A stretch of DNA of 64,000 nt, taken from Bemisia tabaci (taxonomy: Eukaryota; Arthropoda; Insecta; Hemiptera; Aleyrodidae). Below, piece after piece: positions 172-56,431 of the stretch; the first letter of the stretch is position 1; every line of letters begins with the position of its first letter. The notes below the pieces were generated by a model. The model searched no databases, was not told where the DNA came from, and was given only the letters and a program-made list of their open reading frames with translations. The stretch spans positions 5,208,001-5,272,000 of the forward strand of contig NC_092800.1 of NCBI RefSeq assembly GCF_918797505.1, in the 5' to 3' direction. A program made the translations under genes and the position numbers.

Positions 172-1986
172 CAGGGTCGGACTGGCTCGCATCTGAGGGC
201 GTAGACCCTTGGCTGGTTCAAGGGGCGTAATGTGACATTTCTGGTAGGGCATTCCCTACGTAGGGAGAGAGGTTCAGAAAATTTTGGCAAAGCAGCACAA
301 GCTTACACTATTTTCAGGTTCAAAGTTTATTAATCGTACAGAGTAAAAATTGCAAAATTGAACGCATCGAAGTAACCGACAGACTTCTGAATTTTAAAAA
401 AAACATGACTAATTAAAGTCACTAGACGCATCCAAGCACCATAATTTCCGAAAGGACCGAGCCAGTGCTGCGGTTCACACGAGATTTAAGACGTGGGTCT
501 GCAAGTCCATCCTAAAAAAGAATCAGACAAGAACCTGAAAAAAGAAGAAAGAACGAGTATCAACACAGCCGACGACAAGAAAGACGCATTCGAGCCTCTT
601 CTTAAACTTTTCCCCGAATCTGAGCGACACTTTATTGGCATTGGCTCCAGGGCATTGAGAACTCACGCTTCGCGTCATCGCGCCTTCAATTTTTCAGATG
701 CAGCACGAACGTCCATCAAGTACGAATAGTTGTATGTCTGCGCCGTCGTTAACGCGCATCCTTTCCCTCGCTTTATTTCCATATTGTGTTTGTCTTATTC
801 GTAATGGTGCTTCAAGCACTACGTGAATAACACAGCCGAAGGTAGGAGAGATGTTTTCAGGCCTGTTTTTTTAACTTTTCTTCCGAATCTGAGCGACACC
901 TCATTGACGGCATATTGCAGGGCATTGAGTTCTCACGCTTCGCTTCATCGCGCCTTCAATTTTTCAGATGCAGCACGGACGTCCATCAAGTACGAATAGT
1001 TGTATCTCTGCGCCGTCGTAAACGCGCATCCTTTCCCTCGCTTTATTTCCATATTGTGTTTGTTTGCGTCTGTCTTATTCGTAATGGTGCTTCAAGCACT
1101 ACGTGAGTAACACAGCCAAAGGTAGGAGAGATATGTTCGGGCCTCTTTTTTAACTTTTCTTCCGAATCTGAGCGACACCTCATTGACAGCATAAAGCAGA
1201 GCATTGAGAACTCACGCTTCGCGTCATCGCGCCTTCAATTTTTCAGATGCAGCACGGACGTCCATCAAGTACGAATAGTTGTATCTCTGCGCCGTCGTAG
1301 ACGCGCATCCTTTCCTCGCTTTATTTCCATATTATTGTGTTCGTTTGCGTTTGTCTTATTCGTAGATGGAGCTTCAAACTAGTAGCGTAGAGCAGAGTAT
1401 TGCGAGTTCACGACTCACGCCATCGCGTCTTACATTTTTCATATGCAATGTGGACATCCATCTTGCGCGAATCTTCATATCGCGTTTACACTTTAGATGC
1501 CTCTTATTTTTGAATTTCGAGATAAATGAAGGTTATGTTTGCTTGAGATATGCTATGATATGTCCAAATCAATAGTCATTTTGAAAAGGAAGAAATATGT
1601 TTAAAGGTCTCTCAAGAGGTCTACAAAGGGTGCGTATGTCTAAAAATGGAAAAGACCTTCGCTCCTAAGAGAGTTACACAGAGCGAATGAAGGAGTGGGA
1701 TGATAAAGCGCCTGTACGTCGACAAAAAGGTGACAATTTCACAGAAAAGTGTTTACGCTTCAGAAAGTGGTTCTTGGACCTCTGTTCACCACTATCATGC
1801 GTGAAAGCCCCTTTCTTTACTCCTAACTCTCTCTTCTTCCGTTCATTTAAGAAATTTTCCGCATATATTCTCGGCCGTAATTTTTTTCTCTTCTTATTTT
1901 GCTATCGGTCAGAGGGGCGCGTTTTCGGCGCACCAAGGGGGCGTATCTGCCAATGGCAGATTGGCCTCATGGCCGGTCCGAGCCTG
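172..1986. mobile_element. Non-autonomous hAT-type element (1,815 bp)
   Basis: The left end reads CAGGGTCGGACTGGC and the right end is the inverse of CAGGCTCGGACCGGC, a hAT-like terminus. Flanking octamers are ATTTCCCG (164-171) and ATTTTCCG (1987-1994), an 8-bp target duplication with one mismatch. Removing the element restores a continuous family A MITE sequence, which confirms the boundaries independently. The interior is mainly a degenerate tandem array (597-1480) and has no transposase-like frame; the 122-codon frame at 1687-2055 runs across the element end and is not a gene. It would need a transposase supplied in trans. Confidence 0.85.
597..1480. repeat. Tandem array, about 270-280 bp unit, inside hAT element
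   Basis: The landmark GAGCGACAC occurs at 622, 891 and 1170, giving periods of 269 and 279 bp. Each unit carries CATTGAGAACTCACGCTTCG-type, ACGTCCATCAAGTACGAATA-type and TCTTATTCGTA blocks. A fourth, more diverged and shortened unit is seen at about 1390-1480. Indels between units differ in phase, so frames are not maintained and coding is unlikely. A loose fragment of the same unit lies at 17275-17330. Confidence 0.9.
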
Positions 1987-2118
1987 ATTTTCCGCATAGT
2001 ACGAAGTAAATTCCTTAAAATTTTCAAAGAAATCTGCAGAAAAGTTCTCTTGTAAAAAATTAAATTGCCCAGTTAAATCTGTGAATAGCTGATGTGGCTT
2101 GGTTCCTTTCTGCTAAAC

Positions 2119-4178
2119 GCGGTCCAATGATCAATATTTAAGTATTTCGAGAAGTAAGTTTAACTAAGTCAAGTTTTGGGCAGTAAAATAAAAACCAGAG
2201 GAGGACGTAGGTTTAACTATGGCTTGGATGCGCATACCACCTCGATTTTTCACAATGACCGCGGCCAAACAACATTAACCCCGATCAGAGTCACTGGCCG
2301 TAACTAATCCGTCCACCTTTCCTTTTTTTGAAGAACAAACACCTTTCGGCGACGATTCGTTTTTGTTTTACGAGTTGCGTAACCATCGCGAATTCGACAT
2401 CTAGTGCGACGATCAAAGACGCCACACTACCTTTCAACCTGTGTGTAAACTCCGTTGCGTAAAAAAGAGGGTCCGAAAGAAGTGATTTTTGACCGACCGT
2501 GAGGGGAAAAAAAGCTTAAATAATGCGGCGCTGGCCGTGACGAAAGGCAAATCAAAACAAATGATTTTTCCCTCAATACGGCCCGCTCTCTGGGAAAAGA
2601 TTGGGGAGCGTCGTACAGTTTCCAAAGGAGTGGGCATCTTGAATTATTTACAAATCCCACGAGAGTATCTCCTTGGAGGAGGGTGCAGTTTTGTTATTTT
2701 GTTGAGTTTTCTCGTAGAAAGGAGTAACATGGAACGAATCAAACAGCATAGCAGGAAATCTATGGTGTTCTCAAACTTACGATTTATAGGGAAGCAATAT
2801 TGATACTGAGGCGAAGGGCGATATAGGCTTCGCAAATTCCCATTTCGCCTTCAATTTTCGAGGTAGGCCAAAAGACATCTTCCGCGCATCATCTCCTTAG
2901 GGTTTATGGCATGTCGACGGTGTTTGTCCACGACCACATATCTCGATTTGTAACGTTGCAGACCTCCCATCATACTTTATTTTGTAAATGAGAAACTACT
3001 TAACAGTGATTCTTGAAAACTGCCGTGATTTTCCAGCTCTGTTCAGAGAAAATTGTGCGGAAAATTCAAGGAATAATTTCGATTTGTTCTCTTTTGCAGT
3101 AAATTATCTACCTACCACGCAAACTTCACATGATGATCTTAGTACAGGGCCTGATTATCCTTTACATTTTCTATTAAAAAATCTTTACATGGAAAATAAT
3201 GATTCGTGATGTGTTTATAAAAGTAATTGGAAAAACTGAAATTTCTTCAGGTAAGCGCTATTTTCAGCATGTATAAATTTCGTCGGAAAAGGAATCTTCG
3301 CAGAATTTATATCGCGCAAAAAGTTCTGGTAAATGCCACGATTCCTAGAATGATGAGTAAAACGTATTTAAGATAATTATCTGGGAAAATTTTGGAAAAT
3401 TCAGGTATATATCGAAAAGGCAAAATACAGCTACATTGAAATATTACAAACGAAGAACAATCTTTGAGAGCTGTAAGCCAAATGGAAATGCGTACTATGT
3501 CGGCAATAAAAAAATTGACATTTTTAAATGAAATAATAATTTTGCTTTTGCTCTCAAAAACTTGTTATTTTATCCCACTGTTTGCTGCGAGACGGCCTTT
3601 TTAGTGTGAATCAAGAGGGATAGTAACGGTATAACGCACCTTTTACTTTTGCGTAATAGTAGACAATGCAGGCACCTTTTTTCTCATCAGGTCAGTCTGG
3701 ATCACTTTTGTTTTCACCTCAAGGTGATCCAAACACCTATAGATCAGTTTGCTCAGGTGAGATTGTGTCTCTTTTGATGAGCAAGAAAGGAAACAATATC
3801 GAACGATGAGGCACATAATAGGTGGAATGTCACCACACCATTCATTTGCGTTTAGAAGAGTTTTTGTAAAAAAGGACCTTCAGGCTGGGCTTGTGAGGTC
3901 GACTTGGAAGTGCAGTGGGGATTTCAGCATTTCCATTTCCAGGATTTTTTGCAGTTATAAGCATACGGTGTAATTTGAAAGCGAAAAAATGAATCATTCC
4001 GATTTTAGTTTCGTCATTGTGGATGACAGATTTTCTCTCTATCAACGTTATGGACTAGATAAGTGCTAGAGTCAATGTTCGTCAAAAATTTCTCAAGTAT
4101 GACATTCCTCGTGACATTGGATTGGATAGGAACTTCTAAAACTTAGCTCAAATCGATGAATTTATCGAATACGGGCCT
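2119..4178. other. Gene-free stretch, mostly unique DNA
   Basis: No gene recognised. Frames of 60-104 codons occur on both strands at 2430-2830 but overlap each other and show no known domain. Part of the stretch (about 2909-3090) resembles family L (see that entry). The rest is AT-rich DNA with no inverted repeat I can define. Confidence 0.6.
2909..3090. repeat. Fragment of MITE family L
   Basis: Begins GCATGTCGACGGTG, close to the family L terminus GCATATCGACGGTG, and continues with ATATCTCGATTTG and GTAACGTTGCAGAC, matching the order of blocks in the 47757 fragment. No inverted right end is present, so the copy is truncated. Confidence 0.5.
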
Positions 4179-4437
4179 GCGGGCTGATTATTAAAATTGA
4201 TAGACCAACAAAGTAGACGATCAGGAAATGGAGGGATCCTATTGGTTAAAACGGGTCGTTCTTAAACACTAAAGGAAAAAACGATGAAGCTAAGGTGTCT
4301 CTCGTGGGTTACATTTGCCAGTCGATTATACTGCTCTTTTGTTCATTGCAACCAGCCGCTTCTACAAATTGGATCACTTCATTTGCCTTTTTTCTTCTCT
4401 GTCTATGACTTTGTCTATCAATTTCAAGAATCAGTCG
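4179..4437. repeat. MITE family J, copy 1
   Basis: Left end GCGGGCTGATTATT then AATTGATAGAC; right end GTCTATCAATTTCAAGAAT, the inverse. The interior keeps the family blocks CTCTCGTGGGTT and CATTGCAACCA. Related copies lie at 14845, 27146, 45158 and (partial) 51637. Overlapping 70-codon frames here are shadows of the element. Confidence 0.8.
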
Positions 4438-4501
4438 GTGACAGTCCTTGGAACTCGAGGAATTTGGGATTTTTCGAAGAAAATCACTGTCTGTAACTAC
4501 T

Positions 4502-4752
4502 CTGCTGTGCTAAGGAAGAACGCCGTATGAACATTCGGGAGTTGCCAAATTTCCCTTGATACACCATGTAATTTGACGACATTTATGCTCATTTTTCTTA
4601 GAATGTTCAGATACTTTAGATTAAATTGTCTATTAAATTGTCTGACAATTTTGGGAAAAAATATTCACAATTTTCCCCGCAAATTCGGTATTTATCGAAG
4701 GAAATTTGGCAACGTCCGATGGCTCATACTACGTTCTTCCTTAGCACGGCAG
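4502..4752. repeat. MITE family B, copy 1 (251 bp, 4-bp duplication TACT)
   Basis: Left terminus CTGCTGTGCTAAGGAAGAAC, right terminus the inverse ending TTCCTTAGCACGGCAG. Inverted repeats extend about 55 bp to the TTGCCAAATTTCC block. The flanks TACT at 4498-4501 and 4753-4756 are identical, a 4-bp target duplication. The full copy at 33760-34010 has the same length (251 bp). Confidence 0.85.
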
Positions 4753-4756
4753 TACT

Positions 4757-5208
4757 AGGGTCGGGATGCCCTAATCTTCCCTGATTTGAACTTCATTTTA
4801 ATTTCACAATCAGGTAAAGGCAGAACATGTGACTGGAGGTTTTAAAACAAACTGTCGGAAGATCTGGACAGGAGATTATGAGTGGGAGGGCCCCTAAATT
4901 ACGAAGGCAATGCCCGCATGGCGCATGGCGTTGGTGAATCCAGCCTCACGTTATTTATTACTTTATTAACTTCCAGCATTTCGACTTTCATTTATCTCAA
5001 TCATCTCGGGCTCCCCGAATGTTCCTCAGCCCCGTCGATGGCTTATCCCTTATCACTGCACCCCTCTTCACGCATCGATTTGTTCGCTCACTTTTCTCGG
5101 GCCCATTGATTTACTGTCCTTGCCTCGATTTCAGGGACCCCACCTGAATTTTCTTCTCGGGTGTTTCTTTTCACCGCGATTTTTTTCTCCTGAATTCTTT
5201 AAACCCTA
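4757..5208. other. Gene-free stretch
   Basis: Unique, moderately GC-rich sequence (4860-5110) without a recognisable frame or repeat. Confidence 0.5.
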
Positions 5209-5407
5209 CAAGGAAAAAAATCACAATCCCAACGATACTCCTGCCTGATTGTGGTGCCGGATATACGAGTAGTTGAACCATACGGTTGAGTCTCCCGAAA
5301 GTTTGGTTGGATCAACCATACCTCTGGCTATTGGAACTACTCAACTTATATCTGGCGCCAAAATCAGCCAGGAGTATAGTTGGGATTATGATATTTTTCT
5401 TTCAGTG
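5209..5407. repeat. Small fold-back element I
   Basis: Left arm from CAAGGAAAAAAATCACAATC and right arm, which reads on the opposite strand CACTGAAAGAAAAATATCAT, share about 30 bp ending in ACTCCTG. The middle contains a second inverted pair (GAGTAGTTGAAC / GGAACTACTC). It belongs to the loose class of elements here ending CACTGRAAAAAA. Confidence 0.7.
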
Positions 5408-6029
5408 TAGCATAACAAACTTTGGCCTTTAGAATCACTAATATCGAATGAAATCAAATATTACTTAAACCTACTTGAAGAGTTTTGAAAAAAAAAATGA
5501 ATTTAAAAAAAAAAAACAAATGCATAAGCTTAGCTTAGGACTCCTGATATGTCATATGGTAAATGGGGATGCATTAGAGATTACATAAAACAAACTAAGA
5601 AGAGCTTAGAGGAAAATTAAATAGAGGAAAAAGAGGAAGAGGAAAAATATTAACCCCGCGTTCAGGTTACTTGGTGCTTTACCTTAAAATGTTGGTTACC
5701 CTTAAGGACCCAAGTCTGGCAAACGAAAGTTAAAATTTTCTCTCGTCTAAAGGACTGGGCATGATTTATTGTGACACTTTTTTTTGAATCACAGACAAAG
5801 ACAGGTTGGCTAGTTCAACAACACAATTTTGAATTTAAAAAAAAAAGCCTTTTCATTGATGCGCTAATTAATTGCCAAAACTTGATGATGAAGAAGAAGA
5901 GGAAGCAATGAAATAAAAACAACGAAAGCGCAGAAAACAAGAGATGTGTATATACGTAGGTATGGAGCTGCACATTTTTGATGCGCAAATTATTAGTAAT
6001 TTTCAACAAGCTCTCCAATGATCATCCTT
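5408..6029. other. Gene-free AT-rich stretch
   Basis: Contains short A runs (5489-5519) and a purine-rich segment (5590-5650, repeated GAGGAAAA words). No gene or element recognised. Confidence 0.5.
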
Positions 6030-6259
6030 CACTGAAAAAAAAGATTGGTAGAATTTACCATTCCTTCACGCTGTATTTCACAAGGCGTGAAGGAATGGTA
6101 AATTCTATCAATCTTCAAGTCGATTCTGTCAGAAAAATGGTTACCTGTACCAGTATATAGTAACGTTTACCCTTCTTCTGGCAGAATAAACTCTGAATTA
6201 ACACTGTGTGAAATACAGCGTGAAGAAATGGTAAATTCTACCAATCTTTTTTTTCAGTG
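6030..6259. repeat. Fold-back element D with a duplicated arm
   Basis: Ends CACTGAAAAAAAAGATTGG and the inverse at 6241-6259. The left arm (GGTAGAATTTACCATTCC and ACGCTGTATTTCAC) is followed at once by its own inverted copy (GAAGGAATGGTAAATTCT), and the arm occurs again at the right end, so the block is present three times. A further hairpin lies between (6110-6205). Confidence 0.8.
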
Positions 6260-7060
6260 TTCTTCGAGTTCATGTCTACCATTCCTACTCATCCCAACTT
6301 TCCCCATAAAGTCATAAGTCTCCATGCCGAGACACTTTCGAAGCTCTGCACCCCATGTTCAGGGTGAAAAACGACCCCATCGCGCGAGGGCTCCAGGGGC
6401 GGGAAACTGGGGCCTCATTAACGCATTAATTCCAAAGGCACGTGGATAGGGCAAATATTGCACAAATATTTTCTATCAGTTCATAAACACTCGGAGAAAG
6501 AAGCGAGGAACAGTTAGCCCGCAGGTGGATCAAGACAACCGAGTCCCGGTCCCCAGCTACCCCGACAGCGTTGCCACATCCACCAGAAAATATCCCAATT
6601 GTCATATAAAATATCAAAATAAACGTGTGATCCGGCAGTGACGTTCGTTAAGTTGAGTTTTATCATTTGGGGCCGCGGGCAAGACGCGCGAATAAAAGTG
6701 GGTTCATGCGGCTCCTTATCCGTCGCCTGGGAGGCGGCAGCGTTATCTGGTGGCTATATTATGAGTTATGGGCGGTTTCGGTCGGAAATCATCTTCAGTG
6801 AAAGTGGGGTGCTTTTTCGTGGCTCCTCCGTGCTACAATATGCGCAGCCGAAAGAAAGGAGATAAGAAAACGTCGCGACGATACCGCGAAACGTGGTGAA
6901 ATAATTAAAGCCCCCAAACCACCCTCACGTGCTGTTAATGTCCTTTTTTTGCTGTCTCATTTAGTTTTTTGTTTTTTATTTTTCTTCTTTTTACCTTTTT
7001 AGAGCTTTTGTGGCCCATTAAAAAAGCTTCGTTCACGATGGTTCCCTACTTTGACTATTA
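6260..7060. other. Gene-free stretch, partly GC-rich
   Basis: 6400-6880 is GC-richer unique DNA without a convincing exon; frames of 63 and 75 codons have no recognisable domain. 6950-7020 is T-rich. Confidence 0.5.
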
Positions 7061-7061
7061 C

Positions 7062-7400
7062 AATGAGAAAAAAACTTAGTGCATGGGACCCGAAGTTTAG
7101 GTCATATGGATCTCTGAAGTTTTCAGATTGAGCATCCGAACACTTATGGTCCAGCTGCTGAGGTTTGGATCACACATCTGAAACTTCAGTTCTTACATCT
7201 GAAGTACTTCGGTGTTCACATCCGAAAAACTTCGGTTCTCATATCTGAAGCACTTCAGATGTAAGAGCTAAAGTTTCAGATGTGTGATCCGAACCTTGAC
7301 AGCTAGACCTAAAAGGTTCAGATGCTCAATCTGAAAACTTCAGAGATCCATATGACCTAAACTTCGGGTCCCAAGCACGAGGTTTTTTTTTCTCCGTGAG
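7062..7400. repeat. Fold-back element H rich in CTTCAG/CTGAAG words
   Basis: Arms of about 75 bp: the left arm GACCCGAAGTTTAGGTCATA is mirrored at 7350-7375, with GAGAAAAAAAC / GTTTTTTTTTCTC at the ends. The interior (7140-7290) is dominated by short words CTGAAG, CTTCAG, CTTCGG and GATCC in both orientations, so the whole element can fold into many alternative hairpins. Confidence 0.85.
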
Positions 7401-9106
7401 AGTCCTTTGATTGGAGTAAGTATGTAATCAACGAATGGTCATTAGGCCGAGTAAAGTTCAATCAATGATTTACATTTATTCGCAGAAATTTTTTTGCAAC
7501 ACTTATTATGCTCTTTAAGCACGTTAAATGAGCATGGTTGGTACCAATGGGAGCCATTTCTATTATTATTCTTTATTCAAAAAAATAAACCCGCCCACGA
7601 ACCTTACACTTCAGTTTTACCTATTGTGTTCGCATCCCATGATGCATTTTCCTCGCTTTTCAGGATAATTTTAAGTGTTTCTTGATGAAAAAGTAGGAGG
7701 TTAATAAATCATTTCCTTGAACGTTTGACTGCACTCTTTGGAATTTTATGAACTTTGAAATTGTAACACCCAATTAAAAAGATCCTAGGTGATCCAAAGT
7801 AAAATATATGAATTGAGAATGGTCCAGATATTTCGATGTTTCTCCAGTGTATAACTAGAAATGGTTCCCCATGTGGAAGTGCTTTGTACTTGCAAAAACA
7901 AAAAACATGCAAAAATAGAGTCATGAGAGGATTTGGTGAAATACTGCTGCATGCACTGTTGATCCCTTTTTTTTGGGTATGCGAAAGAATGTAAGCAAGA
8001 AGGAGCCAGTTTAATTTATTGACTATTAAAAATGATACATACAACGAATAAAATTCTCAAAGGATCGGATTTTTATTTGGAGACAGGATGAAAAACTCGC
8101 AAGAATTTGCTCTTCCCCCCTACTCTGGTGTCGAATTTGAATTTTTGTATTTGCACTCACCCTTCATATTTTCTGTAAAGATATTAATGGCCTAAGATGC
8201 TGAGAGTCTCTAATAAAATGAACTAACCATTATGTATGATCCACCAAAATAGTATGGTAATGTGAGGAGATTTTTTTCTCCCTGCCTTCCTTTAATTATG
8301 ACGATAGCTTGTACTCTTGCACAACTTTTCGATTTTCTCTTCCTCCGGCTTCAGATTTTAATTATTCCACTCAAAAATTGAATGAACTATCCACGATGTC
8401 AAAATGTTCCTTTGTGTAGAATAAATTCAAGTATTTACGAGAAAAAAGTTGCGAATGAGGAATGATCCTATAGTTCCTCAAGGATGACAGGAAAAATGGT
8501 GCGCCAAATAGGATGAAAACAAATAGGTATATCAGTAACTTTAAAGACAATTAACACTGTGTCACACCCATAAGTTACAGGTGCGCATAGAATTATAGAG
8601 AAGAATGTGAGGAATAATCTTAAAAAGTAGTAGACTATGAACTAGTTATCATGCATATTTAAAAGCCCATTAAGTTTACTCAAATGTTAATGGTCTCAAA
8701 TGGGTCTGCCTGAAGAGTACTTCCGCACAATGCCTTTCATCTTCATTTCGATGTGATTAACTGGCTTTTTCAGCCGAATTACTTGAAATATCCGTGAAAA
8801 ATGATTTACCTCTGAGATTATAAACCCATTTGCATCCTCTAAACTTCGTTGACTGAAATTATATAAAAAGAATGGTGGTTTTGAGCCTTATGTTCATAAA
8901 TATAAACATAAAACAAATGGTATATCTAAGGGAATGTGAATTTCCAAAAATGACTGATTTATTTTATCAATACACTCCTTTAACGTAAAGATGAAGATCG
9001 CCAAAACCATTGAGATAAATCCCGGTAAAAAATGTTTGCGTTTCTCGTTTATGATACTTTTCGATTATCTTGAACAGTCTGACAATCAAAACTGAATATT
9101 ATTTTG
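7401..9106. other. Gene-free AT-rich stretch
   Basis: Unique AT-rich sequence. The 111-codon minus-strand frame at 7709-8044 has no recognisable domain and typical AT-rich noncoding composition; I do not call it a gene. Confidence 0.5.
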
Positions 9107-24731: not shown

Positions 24732-25814
24732 TATAATGTCGACGCTTAATAAGCTTTTTTATGTAAGGAACATTTAAGTTGAGAGAATTAAGACAAGGGA
24801 TAACTATCTTTCTAATGACAAATTATGTCATTACTCCCAAATTGTGTAAGATCGCTGATTACTGAAAGAATAAGGAAAACCTGTCCAAACTTCAAGCGCA
24901 AAATAATAAATATATTATTGAGATGAATCGTATAAAAAAATTAACTCCAAAAGTTAATGTTTGATCGCTCATGAGATGAATGTATCATTACCAGGAGATT
25001 GTATCAGTGCAGGAAAATCCACTGTGCAGTGTGTAATCCCCTGTCGTCGCTTGACAGGATTTAGCGGCATGGCGCGGCGCGGAGCAGAACCCGGTTTCTT
25101 CGGGCGTCATGCCGGTATACTTCGTAAAACGGACGTAGGCTGATAGGATATCGGCCAAAGAAACTAAAAATAACTATACACATATACATCTTAGATTGTC
25201 AGTCTTTCCTACAACGATAGTAAGAATTATTCTTAGTATCATAACACCCGTGATACTTTTATAGGTAAATATTTTTTGTCAGAATTTGTATTCATAGATT
25301 ATCTTCATTTATTCCAATGGGAAAAAATTAATTATCTACCCTTCGAGTTACTTTTTTTTATATCTGTATTCATGCACTGCAGTAAACATTTGCTTGTTCA
25401 CCCGAAAAAAATCCTAAACGCTAGTTTAAATGAGTTTCATGTCAAGCGCAAAAAAATATGAACATGAATTTTCTTAAAGAGTGCAAATTTTAAGTATTTT
25501 TAATTTTTACGTCGCAATTTTAGTTGATTTTTTTCCCCTTTTTCTTTTTTTTGTGTGTGTGTCGCTTGTGGAGATGAAAAATCTGAAAACAGATACCAAA
25601 CTTTAACCGAGTGTCACCAACTTCATGAAGGTTTTGTGTATCTCACAAGAGATAGTTCCGCCCGATATGAGGGGTGGGCGCTGCCAGTTAAAAGATGTAA
25701 TGTAGGTTCGGCCGGAAAAAGAATAAATTTTAGTTGATGTAATCGGATTCCCGAAGAAAATCAAATCGATTCGATTGAACTATTTTTTCGAAAAAATCCT
25801 TAACACTTTATACA
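22401..25814. other. Gene-free stretch
   Basis: Mostly unique AT-rich DNA; 23280-23620 is GC-richer and has overlapping frames of 71-95 codons on both strands without domains. An A run of 35 nt lies at 24694-24728. No gene recognised. Confidence 0.5.
24694..24728. repeat. Homopolymer A, 35 nt
   Basis: Uninterrupted A run; no element body recognised beside it. Confidence 0.95.
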
Positions 25815-26045
25815 CACTGGAAGAAAAAAAACACATTGAATCTAGAGTCCAGACTCTTGAAAACATTGACAAGAAAAATTACTCCTGATTCAATCAGATT
25901 TAAGCTTAAATCAAAAGGAAATCCGCTCAAATTAAAAGGATTGGTTCTTGATTTAAGCTTCAATCTAATCGAATCAAGAGTATTTTTTCTTGTCGATGTT
26001 TTTAAGAGTCTGGACTCTAGATCCAATGTGGTTTTTTTTCCAGAG
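25815..26045. repeat. Fold-back MITE family C, copy 1
   Basis: Ends CACTGGAAGAAAAAAAACAC and the inverse. Arms carry ATCTAGAGTCCAGACTCTTG-type sequence and a second inverted pair, GATTTAAGCTTAAATC. Almost the whole length is self-complementary. Open frames cross it on both strands (25836-26048 plus, 25808-26128 minus). Other copies: 52663, 54973, 56207. Confidence 0.9.
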
Positions 26046-34967: not shown

Positions 34968-35062
34968 AAACAGTCGTTGCTGTGTTAGGATATCTCTGTT
35001 TAACGCATGGAGAAATCAGAGAACGAAAAAGGTGTGTTGTGCAATATGTCTGTCTTAGATGA

Positions 35063-35560
35063 TAGTGCGGTCGCTTAGCTCAAAAATGCACGATGATACG
35101 CGGTTTCCGGCTACCAACGTGATTTTGGTCTTAAAATGACCGTTAGACCCTCCTGATTCAGAAACCACCGGGAGCCACCCGCGCTCCCCCCGTTTTCCCC
35201 CCCTTTTGGCCGCCATCTTGGAAAATGGCGGCCAAAATCGGGTTTTTTCAAAATATCTCGAGAACGGCGGCAGATATCAAAAAATTTTCTTAGTTAAAAA
35301 AGATTCAGCGTGAAAAAGCGGTATGAATGAAGTACTCATACGTGAATAATATGAGAGAAGGGAGGGGGGAGGGGGAGGCCCGCCGCGCCGCTGCGCGCTC
35401 CTCTGCTCCTCAGCTGTCTTGCGAAAAACTCGCTGTTCCGGCGGGCGCGCGTCATCACCCGAGGCGTTGCGCCCTCTGGTAATCAAGCAATTAATAACTG
35501 TACACTTGAATCTTCCCGCCTTTTTACTTGCTGTGCTCTGGATAGGTTGGTAGATATAGA
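35063..35560 (+). repeat. Left terminal inverted repeat
   Basis: Pairs with 37687-38188. The arms appear almost identical; the clearest difference is a 4-bp indel (GGCC) in the GC-rich block near 35380. Each arm contains the hairpin GGCCGCCATCTTGG / AAAATGGCGGCC (35207-35233) and ends internally at GGTTGGTAGATATAGA. Open frames here (to 123 codons) are repeated in the other arm and are not genes. Confidence 0.93.
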
Positions 35561-35955
35561 CAAATTTGAAACCAAAGTAGGTAAAGCACCTTATATAAAG
35601 AATTAATAAGAAATAAATATTTAAGTATGAACTGTCATGAATGAACATACAAAATTAGTCACGAACAGGTAGGAAATTAGAGTCAGTCCTGACAGGTTAG
35701 TACGTACGTAATTCTGCTTCTCCGTAGAAACATCAGGGTGCCTCCAAGTAGAAATAAATCAGCGTGACAAAAATTAAATTTGTATAATTATAGTTTTGTT
35801 ATTACAAAAATAAACGAAATTAACTAAATAGACCCAACGGGTTGGGTGTCTAACTCGTTGGGTGTATTGCAACAGTCTCGCAAAAAAACTAAAATAAAAG
35901 GAAGTATAAAATACAAATAAATGTTAATAAAATACATTTTTGACTGAAGAGTAAA

Positions 35956-36094
35956 TGGACTACATTTTGCAATTTGAAACTATAAATTCTAGCCCGGTTT
36001 AAAACCAACGTACGTGCCATTAGTTTCCCTACGCTTATCCGTGTTTTTCAAGAAGAGCCAGAATTTATAGTTCCAAATCGCAAAATGCAGTCCA
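35956..36094. repeat. MITE family M1 (139 bp) inside the transposon
   Basis: TGGACTACATTTTGCAATTT at the left; CAAATCGCAAAATGCAGTCC at the right; arms about 33 bp to TATAAATTCT. It lies between the left inverted repeat and the end of the broken gene. Confidence 0.8.
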
Positions 36095-36235
36095 AATGTT
36101 TGGCATGAGAGGATAAATTCTTTCGGTATTCATGACCTAAGTTTTGCAATAAACTAGTACGATATTAGTGCGGTTGTTTGAAAGATGGATTCAAAATTAG
36201 AGTGCTTCGGGCCAGTAAGTTGGAAATGCAAACCT

Positions 36236-37557
36236 TTATGAGCATTGCCCATCACATAAACAAAGTGCTGTGCACTTTAAATTAAAGCGTTGGCACTTGC
36301 AATTTTTTATACACATTGTTTTACATCCACAAGATATTAGCTCGTAGCACTCTTTCGAAGCCTCTGATAGGGTGGTCCACAGTGGCACGATGGCAAGTCC
36401 CTCAGTGGTCTCAGTTCTACTTGTCCAACCCCAAGATTTCACATCGGGAACAACTGGATTCAGCTCCAAGCAATGCTTCCAAATGTGAGTATGGAGCATT
36501 GCTCTCCGCAAATGCTGGCGCAATGCTTCCTCAGTGGGAGGAATGTCTCAACCGATCGATTTTTTTGAGTGTACAAGACTCTCCTGCATTCATTGACGGA
36601 TTTTGCCTGGCTGGACGAGTCATAAATAAAAATAGTGAAGAGCTGAATTTTTTCAAAATCATTATTAGAAATTTCGTTACACGATGAAAGCCTCAAAAAT
36701 GTTCCAGTTAAATCATTCTCCAATTTATTCCAGATACTCCACGCCTTCGTCTTGCCTTCGCCGTAGAAAGACGATACGGAGTCACAACCTGTAAACGCAT
36801 GGAAGAATGTCAGTGCGTTGCGCATATCCGGCGAGATTTTCGATGTTAATTTAGAAATTTGGATTAAACTCCTATTTTTACCAACTCCATATTCTACGAA
36901 CAGGTCCTGCAAACCGAATTCTTTCAAAGTTTGGAACATAGAAGTTGCAATCACGATGACATCAGAATCCACAGTACTGAGCAGTACAAACTTATAACCA
37001 GATCGAACAGCATTCTTAATATGAATGAAAAGTCTAGTATCTGCCTCCTCGTGGAAACACGGTGAAATATCGGCGCTTGAAACCAAATTTCCAGCTGAAA
37101 CGATCGATATATGTCATCAGTGCAAATGACGATCTTACCCATTGTCTCCATAGATTTGATGTTTTGTGCGAGTAATTGAAATAACTGAGTCTTGTTACGA
37201 TCAACTTGCAAGAAATGGCCAAAATTTTTCGGTATAGGCGTTGAACCTTTTACGAGAATTTCTCTTCCGGACCCTCTTTTCTCTCTTGTGTCTGATTTTA
37301 AGCTATAAAAGGCGGATATCTGTCGAAAACAATATCAACCCTGTCAAAGCTCTGCAGTTTGCGCTTAATTGCTGACTGAAAAACTTTTATGGAGAAGTCG
37401 GAGAATGTTTTAGCATTTGATTTATTTAAGGTATGCACCAACACAGCTCCATCAATTACGTTAGCGGTGCACAGGTTTACACAAGTTTCCAAGTCATTTG
37501 AATCTGAGCCGCTTAGAACCCTACATCCAATGATACCGCTAAAGTCTAAAATGAACC
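36236..37557 (-). pseudogene. Frameshifted XPG/FEN-like nuclease plus CXC domain, transposon-borne
   Basis: Read on the minus strand, homology starts near 37555 (DFSGIIGCRVLSG) after a plausible splice acceptor (TTCATTTTAG) and continues through IDGAVLVHTL and RVDIVFDRY; a frameshift near 37305 interrupts it before SLKSDTREKRGSG. Next come DRNKTQLFQLL and GKIVICTDD, a second shift at about 37085-37130 (or a 44-nt GTAAGA...TTTCAG intron), then HEEADTR, TVDSDVIVIA and FFHAFTGCDSVSSF, whose acidic residues match the E/D, DxD and GCD motifs of XPG/FEN nucleases. A third shift near 36527 precedes LWTTLSEASKEC and a nine-cysteine CXC cluster ending in a TAA stop at 36236. The N-terminal part is missing. 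This protein type recurs in animal genomes as a repeat-borne family. Confidence 0.85.
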
Positions 37558-37686
37558 AAATTTCAAATTAGGTTTCCATTAAAAAGAAATAGATCGATAA
37601 GGCACTTATTTTCCTCCCACTTGTATTCAAATTGTTTAGCAAAAGTTTATTTCTGAATTAAACTTACCCATTTTCTGTCAAATTTT

Positions 37687-38188
37687 TCTATATCTACCAA
37701 CCTATCCAGAGCACAGCAAGTAAAAAGGCGGGAAGATTCAAGTGTACAGTTATTAATTGCTTGATTACCAGAGGGCGCAACGCCTCGGGTGATGACGCGC
37801 GCCCGCCGGAACAGCGAGTTTTTCGCAAGACAGCTGAGGAGCAGAGGAGCGCGCAGCGGCCGGCGCGGCGGGCCTCCCCCTCCCCCCTCCCTTCTCTCAT
37901 ATTATTCACGTATGAGTACTTCATTCATACCGCTTTTTCACGCTGAATCTTTTTTAACAAAGAAATTTTTTTGATATCTGCCGCCGTTCTCGAGATATTT
38001 TGAAAAAACCCGATTTTGGCCGCCATCTTGGAAAATGGCGGCCAAAAGGGGGGGAAAACGGGGGGAGCGCGGGTGGCTCCCGGTGGTTTCTGAATCAGGA
38101 GGGTCTAACGGTCATTTTAAGACCAAAATCACGTTGGTAGCCGGAAACCGCGTATCATCGTGCATTTTTGAGCTAAGCGACCGCACTA
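37687..38188 (-). repeat. Right terminal inverted repeat
   Basis: Inverse of 35063-35560, 4 bp longer. High arm identity argues for recent transposition or recent gene conversion between arms. Confidence 0.93.
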
Positions 38189-39475
38189 TGAGCCTTCGAT
38201 GAGTTGAAATTTCAGCTCAGAATTAATTAAAAAATCAATGCCCGACAAAAGCTTGCAAAATGCCTCCTCTCTGGTGTAGAAAGGGACACGGCACCGAAAT
38301 TGTTCCAGGATTCCAATTCCCAGTTTTAAAAATGATAATTGAAATAAACGACCACTACATTTCATTTATTTTATGGCCCTTGGCGAGAACTCAAAATTAG
38401 TCATGTGTTTTATACGGTTAGAATTTTAACTGCCAAAACAGCTCCTTCCAAGCTGCATGGACAGCTTTCAACCGCCGGACTATTCGTACAAAGCAAGCAC
38501 AAAGCATGCAAGCTACCCAATTTCCAAAATTAAGGTGAATCGGGGAGTTCACAAATATGCCGATGGTGAATATGGACTCTCGCAGTTGTCAAATTTCTTG
38601 TAAGTTTGACGTTTCATATTCAATTGTAGGAGATTCTCCGTGAATTGCAATCAAATTGAGTTGGCATCGTCGCAAGAGGAGAGGTTTCGCCCGAAAGGGG
38701 CTTAAACTTGCTGTTAAAGAGATCAAAGGTCGCCGTAGATCTGGACTGTTGTCCTGCCCGTTTCTCGCCACTTGGCGCCAAAACGCAGCCTCCGATGAAG
38801 GCTCGTTCTTGAAAACGAACAAATTGGGCTTAGTTTCAATGAGTTAGCGCCCTGCCGTAGGCATTATCACAAGGGCCGAAAATAATAACTGAAGGACGGC
38901 CAGGATCCAAATGTATGAATGTGTGCCAGAATTGCACTTGTGTTTTATGTGCTCTGGCGGCGAAGGATTGAATTCAGACCTATTCATGCCTTTGTCATCG
39001 ATGATGCAATTACAACCCCCGTATTTTCATTTCAACTTTTATCATTTCCAATTGTTTATGAATTTTTATTCCTTACTTATATGAAAAAATAACATTTTAA
39101 TAAGTTTTTCATGATTTCAGTGTTACACTGTGAAAAACTGCAGTCATGCTTATCAAAAGCTATGATTGATTTACCCGACCTAACTTGCATATTATTGCCA
39201 CATTTGCTTCTTTATTTTAAACTGTTATTTAAGTAAGAGGGGATTCTTTCAGATGAAACGGTAACCCAGAACTCTGCACGAACTTTTGGAAGCACATAAA
39301 TGCAATTTTTAACTGCCAGTGGAGAATTTTACTTACCTGTGAATGTAGTGTTTTAGAAGATGAGCATTATACGTACTTTAAGCCTGTAATGAAAAAGTTA
39401 CCCTCCCTAACTAGAGAGAAAAAATTAGAGGAAAGTGGATATTCAATGTGAAGTGAATCAAAGCAAAACTGATGC

Positions 39476-51171: not shown

Positions 51172-51450
51172 CTCACGCTTTCACTAATTTGGTGAATTTT
51201 TTTGGTCAAATAATTCGATCAAATAATTTGGTCAAATAATTTGATCAAATAATTTGGTCAAATAATTTGGTCAAATAATTGGATCAAATAATTTGGTCAA
51301 ATAATTTGGTCAAATAATTTGGTCAAATAATTTGGTCGAATAATTTGGTCGAATAATTTGGTCAAATAATTAGGTCAAATAATTTGATCAAATAATTAGG
51401 TCAAATAATTTGATCAAATAATTTGGTCAAATTAGTGAAAGCGTGAGTTT
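51169..51450. repeat. Inverted-repeat-bounded minisatellite (13-bp unit)
   Basis: AAACTCACGCTTTCACTAAT at the left is mirrored by ATTAGTGAAAGCGTGAGTTT at the right (22-bp arms). Between them (51202-51431) are 17 full and one partial copies of a 13-bp unit, TTTGGTCAAATAA, with G/A and A/G variants (GATCAAATAA, GGTCGAATAA) that alternate in places. The last unit merges into the right arm (GGTCAAATTAG). Confidence 0.95.
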
Positions 51451-51800: not shown

Positions 51801-52662
51801 CCCGCCGGTCATTTCACCGGTCATTAAAAAGAAAGAAAGCGATAGTTTTGGCATCGCGCGGCGCGGCTACGTGGCGAGGATATTATTTGACCATAACTGC
51901 AATATATTTTAAAAGTTTTAGGGACACACACACACTCGCAGTTCCATAATTCATGAGGCTACTTAAAGAAAAGAACAGGAGCGGAGGCTGCGAGGGCGGT
52001 GGCGGGACGGGGGTGAGTCAAGCGGGCATGGCAGTGGCACAGAGGGAAGAATATTAAGGTAGGCGCAAACATGGGTGGGTGGGGTGGTGCAATTTATCAA
52101 CCCCTGGCGCAATCCCCCTCGCCCCGCGCGCGGGGAGGGAGGTGCGTGGATGCTAGCGATACAGACCCCGCCATTCGTAACCGGTAATTTATGGCCTCCC
52201 AAGAATCCGACCTAACCAATCCTATTTTGACTTTTTTCTTAATTTAAAAAAGGAATCGCGCGTGAGAGATGTAAAACTCGAGCGAGACGCCGGGAGCCGG
52301 GGCTCCTTTTCCAATTTTCCATTTCCTTTTGTTTCCCGATCCTCCGCGTTAAATTAGGGAGGGAGCCGCGAGGGGGTGGCGCATTAATTTTGAAGGCATT
52401 ACCTGGGAAATAAAAGGAAACGCGCTGCGCGTAAGGTTGCGAGGGCTGGAACCTCGGCTCGGGTTCGCGGGCAAGGGTTGCTTTCGATATATTCAATAGT
52501 TACTAATCAGAAGAAAACTTGAATGCAAAAAGACACTAAAATGTTGCCAAGACTCTGCTAATTTTTCAAAAGTCGCATGCTTAGACTAAAATTGCACTGT
52601 TTAAATCGGGCCGTGTTTAGCAGAAACATAGAGTACGTAGAATCGTAATATCAATGCTGCCA
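51801..52662. other. Gene-free stretch
   Basis: GC-richer unique DNA (51960-52490) with frames of 79 and 85 codons lacking domains. A short family A end (GTTTAGCAGAAAC) lies at 52614-52626. Confidence 0.5.
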
Positions 52663-52890
52663 CACTGGAAAAAAACACATTGGATCTAGAGTCCAGACTC
52701 TTAAAAACATCGACAAGAAAAAATACTCTTGATTCAATCAGATTTAAGCTTAAATCAAGAACCAAGCCTCTTAATTTGAGCGGATTCCCTTTCGATTCAA
52801 GCTTAAATCTGTCTGAATCAAGAGTCCTTTTTCTTGTCAATGTTTTCAAGAGTCTGGACTCTCGATCTAATGTGTTTTTTTTTCCCAAAG
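52663..52890. repeat. Fold-back MITE family C, copy 2
   Basis: CACTGGAAAAAAACACATTG at the left; TCTAATGTGTTTTTTTTTCC at the right. Inner inverted pair around AGATTTAAGCTTAAATC. Open on both strands (72 and 95 codons). Confidence 0.9.
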
Positions 52891-54972: not shown

Positions 54973-55200
54973 CACTGGAAAAAAAAACATATTGGATCTA
55001 GAGTCCAGACTCTTAAAAACATTGACAATAAAAAGGACTCTTGATTCAATCAGATTTAAGCTTAAATCAAAAGGAAGTTGGCTCAAAGTAAGAGGCTTGG
55101 TTCTTGATTTTAGCTTAAATCTGATTGAATCACGAGTATTTTTTCTTGTCGATGTTTTTAAGAGTCTGGACTCTAGATCCAATGTGGTTTTGTCTCAGTG
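54973..55200. repeat. Fold-back MITE family C, copy 3
   Basis: CACTGGAAAAAAAAACATAT at the left; AATGTGGTTTTGTCTCAGTG at the right. Open frames of 120 codons (plus) and 109 codons (minus) cross it, with mirrored protein strings (DLESRLLKT). Confidence 0.9.
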
Positions 55201-55202
55201 TC

Positions 55203-56206: not shown

Positions 56207-56431
56207 ACACGGAAAAAAAGTCGCTTGGATCTAGAGTCCAGACTCTTAAAAACGAAAAGAAAAAATACTCTTGATTCTATTGGATTTTTGCTTGGATCGA
56301 GAGCGAAGCCTCTTAATTTAAGCGGATTTCCTTTTGATTCAAGCAAAAATCTGATTGAATCAAGAGTATTTTTTCTTGTCAATGTATTCAAGAGTTTGGA
56401 CTCTAGATCCAAGCGATTTTTTTTTCGAGTG
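56207..56431. repeat. Fold-back MITE family C, copy 4 (variant end)
   Basis: CACACGGAAAAAAAGTCGCT at the left; AGCGATTTTTTTTTCGAGTG at the right. Arms share TTGGATCTAGAGTCCAGACT with copies 1-3, but the tips differ (GTCGCTTGG instead of ACACATTGG). Frames of 114 codons (plus) and 177 codons (minus) pass through it. Confidence 0.88.

Follow-up and report, generated by a model that had tools for sequence, protein, structure and literature searches.

A non-autonomous, most likely AcademX-type transposon family in Bemisia tabaci and its long relatives with DUF6589-type proteins

The nuclease of AcademX transposons is of the XPG type. An excerpt of PMC10045372 gives target-site duplications of 3 or 4 bp for AcademX and of 9 or 10 bp for AcademH, its sister lineage within Academ, and ties this difference to the encoded nuclease and helicase, respectively; Academ is listed within the DDD/E superfamilies in an excerpt of PMC9587614, and curated bivalve Academ elements have a mean length of 5.6 kb according to a passage of PMC10294476. 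Here, we describe an element at positions 35063-38188 of a 64,000-nucleotide stretch of the Bemisia tabaci genome (contig NC_092800.1, positions 5,208,001 to 5,272,000; the whole stretch is called the window below). We read the element as a copy of an animal cut-and-paste transposon that has lost internal sequence and is no longer autonomous; it is most likely of the AcademX type, by comparison with descriptions of Academ, and its family is a new one of a transposon kind that is already known. The window family resembles AcademX in having a nuclease gene, terminal inverted repeats and 3-bp duplications, and differs in that no transposase half was detected in the window copy. In contrast to AcademH as described there, with its helicase and duplications of 9-10 bp, the window family has a nuclease and 3-bp duplications, and a 9- or 10-bp duplication was found at none of its 16 complete-ended copies.

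The window element and its copies

The element is 3,126 bp long, complete at both ends and bounded by inverted repeats of about 510 bp, which align as a single gapped pair (35062-35584/38189-37664) with 96.96% identity over 527 columns, or as two pairs, 35062-35390/37861-38189 (98%) and 35359-35576/37671-37888 (93%). Read outside-in, its tips are TAGTGCGG, and TGA abuts both of them; at that boundary, 3 is the only duplication length among 1-10 that fits. A gene remnant on the minus strand begins adjoining the right repeat and comprises an XPG/FEN-like nuclease and a cysteine cluster. Its similarity to relatives falls into four pieces, separated by three frame changes (37459-37316, 37304-37119, ~37107-36538 and 36547-36239); in a search of the window alone, one of these pieces reached E 2e-43 against relative P0001, so that the match is not a chance one. 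The features are:

35060-35062, no strand: left target-site duplication TGA, direct flank of the tip
35063-35573, plus strand: left terminal inverted repeat, about 510 bp, starting TAGTGCGGTCGC
35204-35237, no strand: 34-bp palindrome within the left repeat, with 13-bp stems and an 8-nucleotide core
36236-36547, minus strand: last coding piece, in which the XPG-like region ends and the CXC-type cluster lies (cysteines ~36331-36242)
36460-37113, minus strand: coding piece of 217 amino acids with HEEADTR (~37053-37033), VDSDV (~36972-36958) and GCDSVS (~36789-36772), positions hand-counted from the frame
37119-37304, minus strand: coding piece with SLKSDTREKRGSG and a frame change on either side
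37316-37567, minus strand: first of the coding pieces, from the XPG-like domain, including the conserved segments VIDGAVL and VDIVFDRY
37664-38188, minus strand: right terminal inverted repeat, inner end imperfect; the core of its 34-bp palindrome (38014-38047) is inverted compared with that of the left arm
38189-38191, no strand: right target-site duplication TGA, direct flank of the tip

These features bear out the initial annotation, which had recognised a complete-ended transposon of about 3.1 kb with inverted repeats of about 500 bp, a 3-bp TGA duplication and a broken XPG-like gene whose acidic motifs are followed by a CXC cluster. The upstream DUF6589 half described below was not found ahead of the first coding piece, a Pfam search with the four coding pieces gave no match, and neither did Rfam (gathering threshold) or tRNA scans. 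Two other readings of the ends were rejected. A TA duplication with GTGCGG ends takes as target a TA that is part of the palindromic tip, and leaves unexplained why 15 of 16 copies show 3-bp matches beyond it. An identity with CACTA elements was prompted by the right end, ...CACTA-3'; CACTA/EnSpm ends read 5'-CACTA outside-in, whereas the tips of the window family run the opposite way, TAGTG outside-in.

When the host assembly (G000; 609,955,014 bases, 151 contigs) was searched with the first 498 bp of the window repeat, 41 matches were obtained, a lower bound, and 32 of these pair into 16 complete-ended elements of 2,969 to 5,078 bp (the window element and L011-L025). The remaining nine comprise eight ends that stand alone, are cut or have diverged, and a self-match of the internal palindrome. 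A 3-bp duplication flanks 15 of the 16 copies: TGA, GTG, TTA, CGG, AAA, TGG, AAT, CCA, GCG, TGG, GAA, AAA, TAC, AAA and GAT, where the GTG of L011 assumes a right tip shortened by three bases and the AAA of L022 can also be read as AAAA; one tip base is altered in L021 and in L023. Permuting the right flanks (20,000 permutations) yielded on average 1.5 and at most 8 copies with such a duplication, hence the duplications are not due to chance. A T-N-A target preference, suggested by TGA and TTA, was dropped given CGG, GCG, TGG, CCA and GAA. Over the aligned pieces, the identity of the copies to the window element is 94-99.5%, and the two repeats inside one copy differ by 0-2.2% substitution; given this, the family has probably been active recently.

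The XPG-CXC remnant is present in each of the 16 complete-ended copies, and the frame breaks of the window copy are common to many of them, with L021 and L022 matching unbroken across the first break and L023, L024 and L025 across the last. Searches by tblastn with the upstream half of P0137 or P0030 gave no match at E 0.01 in the window or in 20 fetched loci (15 complete copies and five cut or single-ended ones). Two of these five, L027 and L030, had no gene match whatever in the fetched stretch, and for the diverged solo ends L031 and L032 no partner end lay inside the fetched 10 kb.

As a side observation, the palindrome core in the right repeat of the window copy is an exact inversion of that in the left arm, and it is the only flipped one among the 31 readable arms (of 32) of the 16 copies, which would fit the turning of a hairpin or cruciform.

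Long relatives and their protein

The joined window pieces retrieved 57 relatives, and among the best 7,997 candidates there were 717 for the query P0011, of which 120 are listed. Named sources are beetles, lobster, mussels, limpet, sea anemone, sponge, hagfish and fish, and the labels, if any, are hypothetical, uncharacterised or CXC-domain protein. The longer relatives (~1,060-1,640 amino acids) consist of a DUF6589-type region, a nuclease-like part and a cysteine cluster, in this order, and the DUF6589 region, upstream of the nuclease, carries a conserved D, D and E. DUF6589 (PF20231) is a Pfam family with undefined function, seen in the long relatives and not detected in the window copy; at E <= 0.01 it was recognised in 20 of the 41 long relatives (lowest value 4e-8), and at E <= 0.05 in four of six genomic frames, L035 alone lying above the Pfam curated cut-off (29.2 vs 27 bits). 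The nuclease part is predicted, on models of relatives and not of the window copy, to adopt the Exo1/FEN1/XPG fold, and its acidic positions are conserved in the manner of the FEN family. It differs from the Exo1/FEN1/XPG nucleases in its fusion to a transposon protein whose C-terminus carries a cysteine cluster; the name CXC for this cluster is based on the source labels of P0015 and P0113 and a sub-threshold Pfam match of P0001. A profile of the nuclease part gave no meaningful sequence match among solved structures. The term DUF6589 was not found in the literature searched, nor did any paper there combine the whole words "Academ" and "XPG".

When P0099 served as protein query against the host genome, at least 46 matches resulted, window-type copies included, from which eight long-frame loci were fetched besides the copies already obtained. 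Five of the eight have inverted repeats, 5'-TAGT tips and a 3-bp duplication, and span 6.3-9.6 kb, compared with the bivalve Academ mean given in the passage of PMC10294476; the stop-to-stop frames in four of them (L040, L041, L042 and L043) encode 1,527-1,639 amino acids:

L037: 6,305 bp, duplication TAT, gene in two overlapping frames
L040: 6,291 bp (1277-7567), duplication TAA, uninterrupted stop-to-stop frame
L043: 7,112 bp (932-8043), duplication CTT, uninterrupted frame of 1,527 amino acids
L041: 9,590 bp, duplication AAG, uninterrupted stop-to-stop frame
L042: 9,648 bp, duplication ATT, uninterrupted stop-to-stop frame

These five elements tie the protein family to defined termini, a link that the initial annotation had proposed as useful. 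Since the copies with the window repeat are without a detectable upstream half and the long TAGT-ended relatives possess it, we regard the window element as a non-autonomous deletion derivative. L040 and L043 have the tip TAGTCCAGTCAAT in common, and the repeats of L043 are 99.3% identical over 768 bp around its uninterrupted frame, so that this family looks recently active. A further locus, L038, holds an uninterrupted frame of 1,499 amino acids inside an inverted repeat of about 0.9 kb made of internal sub-repeats, the outer ends of which are not TAGT.

Another element with TAGT tips, L002 (3.28 kb, duplication TTA), contains an XPG-CXC remnant broken in a similar way and lies in a contig filed under Bathymodiolus gill symbiont, which probably derives from the mussel. 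Its left repeat is similar to that of the window element (37 vs 19.0 +/- 3.5, with 0 of 2000 shuffles as high). Animal-type transposon sequence was seen in contigs filed as a planctomycete metagenome-assembled genome (L001) and as a mussel gill symbiont (L002), in both cases probably as animal-DNA contamination. Sequence 3' of the L001 gene was no more like a terminal inverted repeat than shuffles were; relatives were confirmed in no viral contigs and found in no plasmids.

Classification and alternative explanations

In comparison with AcademX, duplications of 3 bp, within its 3-4 bp, occur at 15 of 16 copies and five of eight long-gene loci, an XPG nuclease is indicated by the predicted fold and conserved acids of the relatives (the window copy itself being a broken remnant), and the terminal inverted repeats are about 510 bp, 97% identical over 527 columns. 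The Academ-like character claimed in the initial annotation is supported by the duplication length and the nuclease gene, by comparison with descriptions only. The Repbase rule for non-autonomous elements, as an excerpt of PMC4455052 gives it, asks for the same duplication length and for positions 1-11 aligned with one mismatch; by eye, the window family shows 3 and 4 mismatches to L037 and L002, respectively, so that under the rule as excerpted the tips alone would not group them, while the gene does. Passages of PMC10799480 and PMC9143410 contained nothing decisive.

Several observations weigh against this classification or against a transposase role of DUF6589. In L014 the flanks are TAT/GAT, with no duplication (one of 16 copies), and no full-length element carrying the window's own repeat was found among the 41 matches, a lower bound. 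Of the eight long-relative loci, L039 shows TAGT tips that are not flanked by a 3-bp duplication, and neither for L038 nor for L044 could the ends be delimited. Beyond the tip, the L037 repeat is no closer to the window repeat than shuffled sequence (34 vs 30.75 +/- 4.2, with 64 of 300 shuffles as high), and the same is true of the right repeat of L002 (18 vs a mean of 19.5, with 1372 of 2000 shuffles as high). DUF6589 was not matched at 0.01 in 21 of the 41 long relatives, nor, among the six genomic frames, in L040 or the first frame of L037, and a profile of the region gave no meaningful match among solved structures. Support for the nuclease fold from Foldseek was modest, with one match at E <= 0.001 for P0001 and none for P0099. 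Additionally, no transposase fold was listed in the fold search with the full-length model; since the nuclease domain fills the match lists, its absence from them does not speak against it.

Harbinger, Zator and CACTA/EnSpm transposons also produce 3-bp duplications. Hence, a 3-bp duplication by itself is not specific to Academ, and an element of one of these superfamilies might have captured a piece of an XPG-like gene, which could account for a gene without transposase and would agree with the failure to find a full-length element behind the window repeat. We consider such a capture very unlikely, because the remnant is identical in kind in all 16 copies and five like-ended elements carry the long gene, indicating that the gene is proper to elements of this kind; for CACTA, the orientation of the tips also argues against it. 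It is likewise unlikely, if a little less so, that the XPG-like nuclease and not the DUF6589 region cuts and joins the ends, which would make this a non-DDE transposon. The conserved, FEN-family-like acidic positions speak for a catalytic nuclease of this sort, as does the other half, for which no transposase fold was listed; on the other side, D, D and E are conserved upstream of the nuclease, and no FEN-type enzyme is known to join DNA. Moreover, Academ is counted among the DDD/E superfamilies in the excerpt of PMC9587614. A segmental inverted duplication around an old gene, with no transposon involved, would suit the length of the inverted repeats, but is refuted by the copies: 16 are dispersed and end alike, and the 3-bp duplications at 15 of them differ in sequence. 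We give it practically no credence.

Proposed mechanism and significance

On the AcademX-type reading thus preferred, the single large protein of the long relatives combines a DUF6589-type region bearing a candidate D-D-E triad with an XPG/FEN-like nuclease and a CXC-type cluster. A transposase supplied from elsewhere in the genome would bind the repeats of about 0.5 kb, cut at the 5'-TAGT tips and join these to cuts staggered by 3 bp, giving the 3-bp duplications, and the nuclease may act on flaps, gaps or hairpins at the ends of the transposon. On the simplest reading, a deleted and already decaying copy would have been moved by protein provided in trans; the D-D-E chemistry of the DUF6589 region, like the role of the nuclease, is inferred.

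Other repeats were seen in the window. A sequence of about 225 bp occurs in four copies (25813-26041, 52661-52885, 54977-55201 and 56211-56431) with 78-92% identity among them in either orientation, and resembles a palindromic short transposon. Additionally, there is a tandem array at 589-1377 (279-bp unit x 2.9, 88% matches), and at 51185-51432 the 13-bp unit TAATTTGGTCAAA stands in 19 tandem copies.

The new value of these findings lies in linking a large, poorly named animal protein family, together with DUF6589, to exact transposon ends. Such defined ends (TAGT tips, inverted repeats of about 0.4 kb or more, and a 3-bp duplication) let annotators purge the family from host gene sets. Moreover, the link opens the transposase and the nuclease beside it to testing and suggests what DUF6589 may be: we lean, without great confidence, towards seeing in it the catalytic DDE domain of the transposases of a transposon group widespread in animals, whose proteins join it to an XPG-like nuclease and a CXC-type cluster and whose hallmark is 5'-TAGT tips with 3-bp duplications. 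If this is true, DUF6589 proteins elsewhere would be transposons or domesticated descendants thereof.
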